Positions 38,874 to 41,608 of a stretch of DNA of 64,000 nucleotides are shown piece after piece. The notes under the pieces were generated by a model. The model was not told the origin of the DNA. It made no database searches and was given only the letters and a program-made list of their open reading frames with translations. The stretch comes from Pelagomonas calceolata. Its lineage: Eukaryota; Sar; Pelagophyceae; Pelagomonadales; Pelagomonadaceae. The stretch's first letter is position 1, and every line of letters starts with the position of its first letter. A program made the position numbers and the translations under genes. The stretch spans positions 186,001-250,000 of the forward strand of contig CAKKNE010000003.1 in assembly GCA_918797485.1 (NCBI GenBank), read 5' to 3'.

Positions 38874-40760
38874 ATGGCCACGGCCGCCAGCGCCGACCCC
38901 GCGCCACCAAGCAGAAGCTACTACGAGGCCTACACGAAAAAGCAGAAGGCCGGCAACCGCTTCCAGGACGCCGTCTTCGTGGAAAGAGGCGCCCTGCGCG
39001 TCGCGCGCGACCAGAACAAGCCGCCGCTGCCGCACCTCCCGACCGAACGAAAAGCCATTGATAGAGACGAGTACGCGCGCTTCCTCGAGGCGCAGCTCGC
39101 GGCCGCCGGCGCCTTACTGGCGCGCTTCGAGCAGCGCGAGGAGCAAGTTCAGCAGTCTATAGACAATGCCGCGAGGACATGCGCCGAGGCGGCGGCCGGC
39201 GCGCGCGCCGAGGAGGCCGCGCGCATGGAGCGGCGCATCGTTGATTTGGAGGCGCGCCTGGCGGCCTCGGAGACGAATTTGCGCAAGGCCGAGGAGCGGA
39301 GCGCGAGTGCCGAAAGTAGAGTGGACGACGCGTGCGCTCTAGTCAGGGAGCTCTCGTCGGGGCCGCGCCTGCGCGCCGCCGAGGACCGCGCGTCGGCGGC
39401 CTGCGCTAGAGTTGCGGATGTAGAAAAAGCTTTACACGCGGCATTACGATCACTCGGCGAGAAGGGCTTGACGAACCTCCTGGAAGAAGAGGACGAGGAG
39501 GAAACGACGCCGCTGTCCGAGCGGCTAGCCGCGGCGGAGGTCGCCGTCGAGGCGGCCCAGGCCACGGCCCTCGGCGCGACGGCATTAGCTGAACGGTTGG
39601 CAAAGCGTCTAGAGGACGCCGAGCGGACCGCCAGAGAATTGGCGGAAAATGCGACGTCGCACGAGGACGCCACGGCGGATGCTGTTATCGAGGCCGTGGC
39701 CAACCTCGAAACCAAAACGAATGCGAGGTTGGAGGCGCTCGAGGCGTTCCAGAGGAGACCGCCGCCGTCGCCCGTCGCGCGGCCCGACTCTCCTGTCCTA
39801 CAGTCGACGCCCGCCGCCGCCCGGGCCGGCGAGCTCCTGAAGGAGCAGCTCGGGCTGTCTGAGGAAAACGCGGTCGACGAGGCCCCCTCGATTCATTCAT
39901 CAAATGCCTCAGACGGGACGACGAATGAAGATGACGACGACGCGATGGCGCGGGCGGGCCGCGACCTCGATGATGCGAGAGCTGTCGCCGAGGCCGTGGC
40001 GGACGAGGCCGTGTTGCGGGCCGAGTTCGCGGAGCAGGAAGCGGCGTTGCTGCGGGAGCGCGCGGGCGTTTTGGTGCAGAAATTGAGGGATGAACCGCCT
40101 CCAACGTATGACGAGCACACGACGCACCACGGCGGCGAGTTCGTGCTGGCGCCGCCGCAGTCGCCAGCGCGTCTGGACCACGCGTCGCCCGTCCGGAGGT
40201 CGGCGCCCTCCTCACCCTCGTCGTCGCGGCGGTCTGTTGATGAGCCTCCCAAGCCGAAGACGAAGAAGTCGCCCGCGCGGAAGAAGGTCGTCGTCAAGGC
40301 CGCGACGCCGCCGCGGAGCAAGGCGCGATCGTACGCGGAGTCGCCGCCGCCGCAGCTCGACGGCGACGACCCGCCACCTCTACCGCCGCACCTGCGCCAG
40401 TACGAAGCGTCGGACATCCTCCGAGCCGCGGGCGCCGACGTGCCCGAGGCACCTGCGCGCAAGACGGTCAAGAAGAAAAAGAAGGTTGTTAAAAAGAAGG
40501 TAGCGAGGCGGCCGCCCCAGATCGAGACGGGCGCCGAGACGGCGGCCGAGCGCGCGCGCCGGCGCGTCCTGGCTTCTAGAAGGACGGGCGTGACGCACCG
40601 CGGGCCCATCGGCGCGACGTGGCCGGACTCGGTCACGCACCCCCGCGTCGTCGCGCGCGTGCCGTCGGGCGCGGCCTGGGTCCCGGCCATGAAGGTCGGG
40701 ACTCCTAGATTACGGAGCGCGTCGCCGGCGCCGACGTCGGCGCCGAGTTCCGGCGTTTGA
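38874..40760 (+). CDS. Coiled-coil protein with basic C-terminal region, unrecognised
   Basis: The protein has 628 residues from the ATG at 38874. Residues 55-290 form a long coiled coil rich in Ala, Glu and Arg. An acidic patch follows (NEDDDDAMARAGRDLDD), then a second short coil. The C-terminal 200 residues are Pro/Ser-rich and basic, with KTVKKKKKVVKKKVARR near residue 535. There is no TM helix or catalytic motif. The layout suits a cytoskeletal or basal-body scaffold, which is only a guess. Confidence 0.75.
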   Translation: MATAASADPAPPSRSYYEAYTKKQKAGNRFQDAVFVERGALRVARDQNKPPLPHLPTERKAIDRDEYARFLEAQLAAAGALLARFEQREEQVQQSIDNAARTCAEAAAGARAEEAARMERRIVDLEARLAASETNLRKAEERSASAESRVDDACALVRELSSGPRLRAAEDRASAACARVADVEKALHAALRSLGEKGLTNLLEEEDEEETTPLSERLAAAEVAVEAAQATALGATALAERLAKRLEDAERTARELAENATSHEDATADAVIEAVANLETKTNARLEALEAFQRRPPPSPVARPDSPVLQSTPAAARAGELLKEQLGLSEENAVDEAPSIHSSNASDGTTNEDDDDAMARAGRDLDDARAVAEAVADEAVLRAEFAEQEAALLRERAGVLVQKLRDEPPPTYDEHTTHHGGEFVLAPPQSPARLDHASPVRRSAPSSPSSSRRSVDEPPKPKTKKSPARKKVVVKAATPPRSKARSYAESPPPQLDGDDPPPLPPHLRQYEASDILRAAGADVPEAPARKTVKKKKKVVKKKVARRPPQIETGAETAAERARRRVLASRRTGVTHRGPIGATWPDSVTHPRVVARVPSGAAWVPAMKVGTPRLRSASPAPTSAPSSGV

Positions 40761-40794
40761 TAAATTTACAACAGTATATATGACGGGGGGACTA

Positions 40795-40862
40795 GGCCTC
40801 GGGGGTCTCGGACCCTCTGCTAGCTTGGGCAGTGGGTCGTCACGGGCGGCCATCTATCCCTC
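40795..40862 (-). promoter_or_regulatory. SECIS-like RNA element after the GST stop codon
   Basis: On the minus strand the sequence has GTGA at 40843-40840, a 10-bp helix (GACCCACTGC pairing with GCAGAGGGTC, one A-A mismatch) and an apical loop containing AA at 40826-40825. CGAG follows at 40810-40807. The order GTGA, 13 bases, AA in the loop, then an NGAN 3' partner is the eukaryotic SECIS core. A lower stem with GGCC arms closes it. It lies about 21 bases after the GST stop, which is closer than usual. Pairing was done by eye. Confidence 0.7.
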
Positions 40863-40864
40863 TA

Positions 40865-41608
40865 TCACTTCGACGCGAACATTTTCATCATGCGCGTCAT
40901 CCCGGCCACGATGTCTTCGTCCGACGGGCGTGTGGAGGCGACGGACGGCCGCTCGAGAATGGCGGTGATTAGTTTATTCACCCTTGGGTGCCTTTTGCAG
41001 ATCTCCTTGACGTCGACGTCGCAGAAGTGCTTCAGGTTCGGTATACTACGCGCCACGAACGGAGCCATCATAGCTTCGCTGAAGCACATCTCCGTACCGC
41101 AGAGGAAGGGGCCCTCCGAGTCTTGGTGGATCTCGAGAAACGTCTCGAAGTTCTCCACGTCCTCCTCGAACTCGGCGACCTTCTTGGCGAGGGCGTCCTT
41201 GTCGTCCCGGACCTTGATGAATGCGAAGTAGTTCTGGAAGGGCTGGATCTCCGCCATCAATCTAGCGCTCGCCCTCTTTGCTGCGTCCGCAGGATAGAAA
41301 GGCGCACCGGCGCGTTCGGCCAAGTATTCGACCGTCACGCTACTTTCGACGAGCGTGTCGCCGTCGATCTCGAGCACCGGCACTTTGGCGCGACCGCCCG
41401 GATTTGCTTTTTTGTATACATTGATGAACTCCTCGCTCTTGTTCTGCAGGTCGCACTCCACTGTGTCGTGTTCGACACCGGTCTCCGCGAGAGAGATGCG
41501 GGTGCGTTGCGCGTAGGGTCAGGCGGCAGCACTCCATAGAGTGCAGCTCTTGGCCGACAGAGCTCGCGTGCTATGAAGCGCCACAGCTATCACGAGTGCA
41601 CGCTGCAT
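40865..41608 (-). CDS. Selenocysteine-containing glutathione transferase
   Basis: From the ATG at 41608 to 40865 the frame is open for 248 codons except one in-frame TGA at 41521-41519 (codon 30). That TGA sits exactly where GSTs of the omega/DHAR type have their catalytic Cys: the context reads SCTLWSAAA, TGA, PYAQRTRISLAE. The thioredoxin-like domain continues with NPGGRAKVPVLEIDGDTLVE, with the cis-Pro in KVPV and the ES glutathione-binding turn, and an all-helical C-terminal domain follows. Residues 1-19 look like a signal peptide. A SECIS-like hairpin follows the stop. The terminal stop is also TGA, directly followed by TAG. Starting at the later ECDL instead would lose the active site and first strand. 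Confidence 0.85.

Follow-up and report, generated by a model that had tools for sequence, protein, structure and literature searches.

A reading frame on the reverse strand of contig C3 (CAKKNE010000003.1) of the marine alga Pelagomonas calceolata poses the question of whether a TGA codon, placed where a glutathione transferase (GST) would hold its catalytic residue, ends translation or is read as selenocysteine (Sec). The frame lies within what is here called the window, i.e., the whole 64,000-nucleotide stretch that was analysed (C3:186001-250000; the genome totals 32,445,274 bases, spread over 8 contigs), and positions given below without a contig are those of the window. The published account of strain RCC100, in the parts available to us, describes six nuclear contigs totalling 32.4 Mb, a 90-kb plastid contig and a 39-kb mitochondrial contig (PMC9481584). 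We predict with high confidence, from the sequence comparisons that follow, that the locus is nuclear and intact and encodes a Sec-containing, omega/DHAR-like GST in which the UGA of codon 30 is read as Sec.

The initial annotation had described a frame running from an ATG at 41608 and broken only by a TGA at codon 30, and translation of the region agreed. The predicted coding sequence (40865..41608, minus strand) comprised 247 codons and closed with a terminal TGA (40865-40867), its sole internal stop was the TGA of codon 30 (41519..41521, minus strand; LWSAAA-U-PYAQR), and the 217 codons 3' of this TGA were all open. The terminal TGA was directly followed by a TAG (the two together at 40862..40867, minus strand). 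A terminal TGA at the first in-frame stop was also seen in 4 of the 13 other TGA-bearing genes considered below, with one of the four (L034) being doubtful. The residues at the start of the protein may form a signal or transit peptide, where the signal-peptide call was made by eye.

With codon 30 read as Cys, the Pfam matches were GST_N_3 (E 7e-15), GST_N_2 (2.5e-14), GST_N (8.2e-14) and GST_C_5 (6.1e-10), i.e., the thioredoxin-like N-terminal domain and the helical C-terminal domain of GSTs were both present. An AlphaFold2 model made from a 3-sequence alignment was set aside as support for these domains, its mean pLDDT of 50.8 being too poor. Searching the solved structures gave 81 PDB sequences at E <= 0.001; the best among the 60 listed was Leishmania thiol-dependent reductase 1 (TDR1; 1.1e-19), and human GST omega-1 (GSTO1) matched at 4.3e-13, a zeta-class maleylacetoacetate isomerase at 5.2e-12, and DHAR at 8.6e-10 and weaker. 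Omega/DHAR-like is the best, though provisional, class for the predicted protein, since matches also came from zeta-class GSTs and from other GSTs, some of them ranking above DHAR. In the three PDB alignments printed, codon 30 fell upon the Cys of the CP motif, which we take to be the catalytic Cys; other GST classes hold a Tyr or Ser instead of this Cys nucleophile, which is here predicted to be Sec. The placement of the TGA at the catalytic Cys of an omega/DHAR-type GST, as first proposed from the letters alone, was thus borne out by these alignments, and a Cys was present at this position both in the printed solved homologues and in one paralogue (L004, reading RMCPYAQR). TDR1 and GSTO1 accordingly resemble the window GST in being its best solved matches with an active-site Cys at codon 30, and differ in holding Cys where Sec is predicted here and in being distant in sequence; the plant and algal DHARs, while among the PDB matches, ranked below TDR1 and GSTO1 and also below some of the zeta-class and other GSTs, and presumably have Cys at the site of the predicted Sec. 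Among candidate relatives elsewhere, 1 of 57 prokaryotic stretches was confirmed (a weak locus matching residues 34-233), and none of 12 viral stretches was confirmed in the scan. Bacteria decode Sec with a SECIS of a different kind.

The codons 5' of the TGA contribute to the domain match. When the protein was begun directly after the TGA, so leaving out codons 1-30, the GST_N_3 score dropped from 55.6 to 47.9 bits and the Glutaredoxin score from 22.4 to 13.8 bits. The first in-frame ATG after that at 41608 was codon 118, with none in codons 2-117, and codon 118 lies beyond the N-terminal domain match, which ended at residue 103. Since the residues 5' of the TGA raise the domain score and the next in-frame ATG is this far downstream, we place the TGA, on the reading of the frame, inside the GST domain and not at a gene boundary, in keeping with the initial annotation. 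It is extremely unlikely that the protein begins elsewhere, or that an intron removes the TGA, such that Sec would not be needed. The third-position GC content was lower before the TGA (0.59 for codons 1-29 vs 0.80 for codons 31-247), which fits this alternative and leaves the exact start of the GST less certain than the remainder, and introns do exist in the genome (the paralogue L003 apparently has one); against these points, the next in-frame ATG comes as late as codon 118, the GST profile spans both sides of the TGA so that excision would remove part of the catalytic motif, and the SECIS hairpin described below would be without a role.

A SECIS-like element was found on the sense strand in the 3' UTR of the GST, as drawn from the position of its stop. 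The core (40808..40843, minus strand; GTGACGACCCACTGCCCAAGCTAGCAGAGGGTCCGA) was recovered by the hairpin scans and by a strict descriptor; its start lies 21 nt beyond the stop and about 676 nt 3' of the codon-30 UGA, and it is made up of a GTGAC quartet side, a 9-pair helix II containing one A-A mismatch, the apical loop CCAAGCTA and a CCGA quartet side. With its lower helix, a short one of 4 pairs with another 2 further in, the element extends over 40792..40856 (minus strand). By hand count the core fits, with 13 and 15 nt, the first-step SECIS pattern NTGA-(10-13)-AA-(15-39)-GA given in the available text of PMC2375036, and it was the sole start of a match to this pattern in the 104 nt that follow the GST stop. 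A convergent open frame of 628 aa (38874-40760, plus strand) leaves just these 104 bases between its end and the GST stop, and the SECIS occupies much of this space. In the first scan the energy of the element was -23.0, close to the -21.8 of the best of 15 shuffles of the 1000-nt flank; in a relaxed scan it was second-best in the 3' flank at -23.3, with a stretch 968 nt downstream at -23.5.

The strict descriptor asked for RTGACG, at least 9 pairs, an energy of at most -12 kcal/mol and CCGA, with thresholds set when the GST element was already known. Searching both strands of the window with it returned one match, the GST element itself (mean for 60 shuffled windows, 0.18), and it was satisfied by none of 20,000 shuffles of the 104-nt stretch that separates the GST stop from that of the convergent frame; a loose descriptor was satisfied by 8 of the 20,000. 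The loose descriptor matched five times in the window, the GST element included, and gave two stray matches in the Sec loci. Across 48 loci without a Sec listing (310,894 bases, both strands, some overlapping) there were no strict and 10 loose matches.

Thirteen other genes of selenoprotein type served for comparison (L012-L015, L018, L019, L023, L024, L031-L034 and L037; GPx, SelW, SelT, MsrA and SelU/AhpC types), where the gene names SelW, SelT, SelU and PrxQ and the expected Sec sites are our own assignments from motifs. Of the GPx matches, 4 of 5 had a TGA at the expected Sec site, as did 2 of 3 Rdx (SelW plus SelT types) and 2 of 11 MsrA matches; for 5 of 9 AhpC-TSA_2 matches a TGA stood just upstream of the match. 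The first hairpin scan detected an element in the window GST and in four of six other Sec genes (not in L014 or L019). The scan rules were relaxed after this first pass and the 1500 nt after each match were scanned; under the relaxed rules the core RTGA...GA was present in all 13 genes, followed the first in-frame stop by 17-50 nt in 12 of them, and was the top-scoring structure in 12, being second in L015. The strict pattern RTGACG...CCGA was met with in 10 of the 13 and the loose one in 12. In the AhpC-like L034 the first in-frame stop was the TGA of the SECIS quartet itself (~2150-2215); as the in-frame reading runs into the SECIS this suggests an intron, or else the stop lies inside the SECIS. 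The hairpin 21 nt after the GST stop resembles the elements of these 13 TGA-bearing genes, which answers the proposal that the 3' flank be inspected for a SECIS.

An alignment of all 13 elements was dropped when SelT and GPx3 were seen by eye to be misaligned, and a covariance model with only 7 pairs was prepared instead from 9 of the 13 (omitting GPx3, SelT, MsrA1 and SelU2), the GST element being kept out of it. This model ranked the GST element first of 22 matches in the window (22.4 bits, E 0.039; the next at 19.2 bits, 0.14). Folding of 40792-40856 gave a minimum free energy of -22.1 kcal/mol (z -2.47), and 4 of 200 shuffles were as stable. The helix II of the GST element was the weakest among the strict matches (-14.2 vs -18.2 to -27.7 kcal/mol). 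The Rfam model SECIS_1 detected nothing in the gene region, and none was reported from the genome search, in which 132 of 249 candidates were scored. We take this silence to be a limit of the Rfam model or of its first look, because SECIS-like elements accompany 13 genes in which a TGA occupies a known Sec site.

The genome contained 28 matches to GST_N_3, and inspection by eye placed a TGA at the active site in two of them, i.e., in the window gene and in a second GST (L003/L049; C1:4601396-4601902, within the locus C1:4599896-4603402) reading NSGV-TGA-PFAQR. The product of this second gene carries an NAD(P)-binding domain N-terminal to the GST (PF13460, 6e-12), and the gene apparently, by eye, holds an intron. 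Its stop is a TAG, after which comes a shortened SECIS-like hairpin, GTGACGGAGCATGCGCTGCTTTTGAT enclosed by a 7-pair helix; a full SECIS was found in its 3' flank neither by the hairpin scans nor by the strict or loose descriptor. In a third GST match with a TGA (L055) the TGA appeared by eye to fall in an intron, and this match was set aside. Two GST loci on C3 and C6 (L041 and L042) had the same translation over the stretch printed. According to the parts of the genome paper at hand, a 192-kb duplication is shared between the ends of contigs 3 and 6 (PMC9481584); the L041/L042 pair is consistent with it.

These data bear upon whether the TGA of codon 30 is a true stop, the locus then being either a recent pseudogene or a Cys-type GST altered by a sequencing error. 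The codon is one base from TGC or TGT, and the SECIS-like element of the GST, as given above, is the weakest of the strict matches. Nevertheless, we consider this reading very unlikely: a SECIS of the type seen in this lineage lies in the 104 nt that precede the convergent frame's stop, all of the codons after the TGA have stayed open, and a second GST carries a TGA at the same codon. The window gene and L003 share 33% identity, and a TGA at one catalytic position in two paralogues this divergent argues against an error in either. Moreover, the published assembly was polished with both ONT and Illumina reads, as stated in the available portion of the paper (PMC9481584).

Reading of the UGA as Sec would further call for the decoding machinery, of which tRNA-Sec and SepSecS were found. 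A family search for tRNA-Sec (53 of 3333 candidates scored) gave five matches, of which two on C5 were above the cut-off at 62.5 bits each; ARAGORN called both as tRNA-Sec with the anticodon TCA, and a single match to SepSecS was obtained (E 1.6e-111). The two tRNA-Sec(TCA) genes (L007 and L008; C5:5024950-5025614) belonged to two tandem copies of a tRNA-Trp plus tRNA-Sec pair, the copies being 579 bases apart with a tRNA-Val between. The proposal that a Sec occupies the catalytic site, as first raised in the initial annotation, now draws support from the SECIS-like element, the Cys-containing homologues, the second TGA-bearing GST, tRNA-Sec and SepSecS.

On this basis, tRNA-Sec(UCA) would decode the codon-30 UGA as Sec under the direction of the SECIS hairpin, the Sec would take the place of the catalytic Cys of omega GSTs, and its selenol would act as the nucleophile. 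The class of the protein suggests that it might carry out glutathione-dependent thiol transfer, deglutathionylation or dehydroascorbate reduction. Sec insertion, the activity of the enzyme, its substrate and its location are what we infer for the window GST. A more elaborate proposal is that the cell has two divergent Sec-GSTs, where the UGA of L003 would serve as a selenium-dependent switch between the NAD(P)-binding protein alone and an NAD(P)-binding/Sec-GST fusion, and the window gene would supply a constitutive Sec form. The proposal of a switch arises from L003 having only the shortened SECIS-like hairpin, and we regard it as unlikely.

Selenocysteine-containing GSTs have been reported before in algae. 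The sections of a survey available to us list GST among the algal selenoprotein families, with cases in Mamiellales and Emiliania, including an Emiliania GST-MSRA fusion, and state that GSTs with Cys or other residues occur in nearly 90% of algal genomes, the majority of algal GSTs having Cys or a different residue at this site (PMC7539508). For Aureococcus, itself a pelagophyte, the available text names GST as a selenoprotein gene, with overexpression at the final three time points of a virus infection (PMC5917014). These algal Sec-GSTs are likened to the window GST by their description as GST selenoproteins in an alga, not by sequence, and come from other species. In the same way, the GOS survey of marine microbes includes the COG0625 GST in its selenoprotein table (PMC2398784, in the portion available), a likeness of listing and not of sequence, and one to marine microbes. 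GST was not mentioned in the available text of PMC2375036 (2007), and the other Sec-GST literature, so far as its text was available, dealt with a Sec-GST that had been engineered and produced in E. coli, and with glutathione peroxidase. The literature search returned no paper with both Pelagomonas calceolata and selenoprotein and no selenoprotein survey of this species, and the available text of its genome paper contained no word starting with "selen" (PMC9481584). The window GST is therefore very probably one more Sec-GST of a type known from other algae, among them the pelagophyte Aureococcus.

Automatic annotation would probably truncate such a gene at the UGA or begin it too late, and the catalytic site would be lost; what is at stake here is a redox enzyme of an abundant ocean alga. 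The genome's own SECIS consensus, which went undetected in the Rfam SECIS_1 search described above, would permit a survey of selenoproteins in P. calceolata. The finding of a predicted Sec-GST is consistent with a wide use of selenium by pelagophytes and leaves that picture unchanged.
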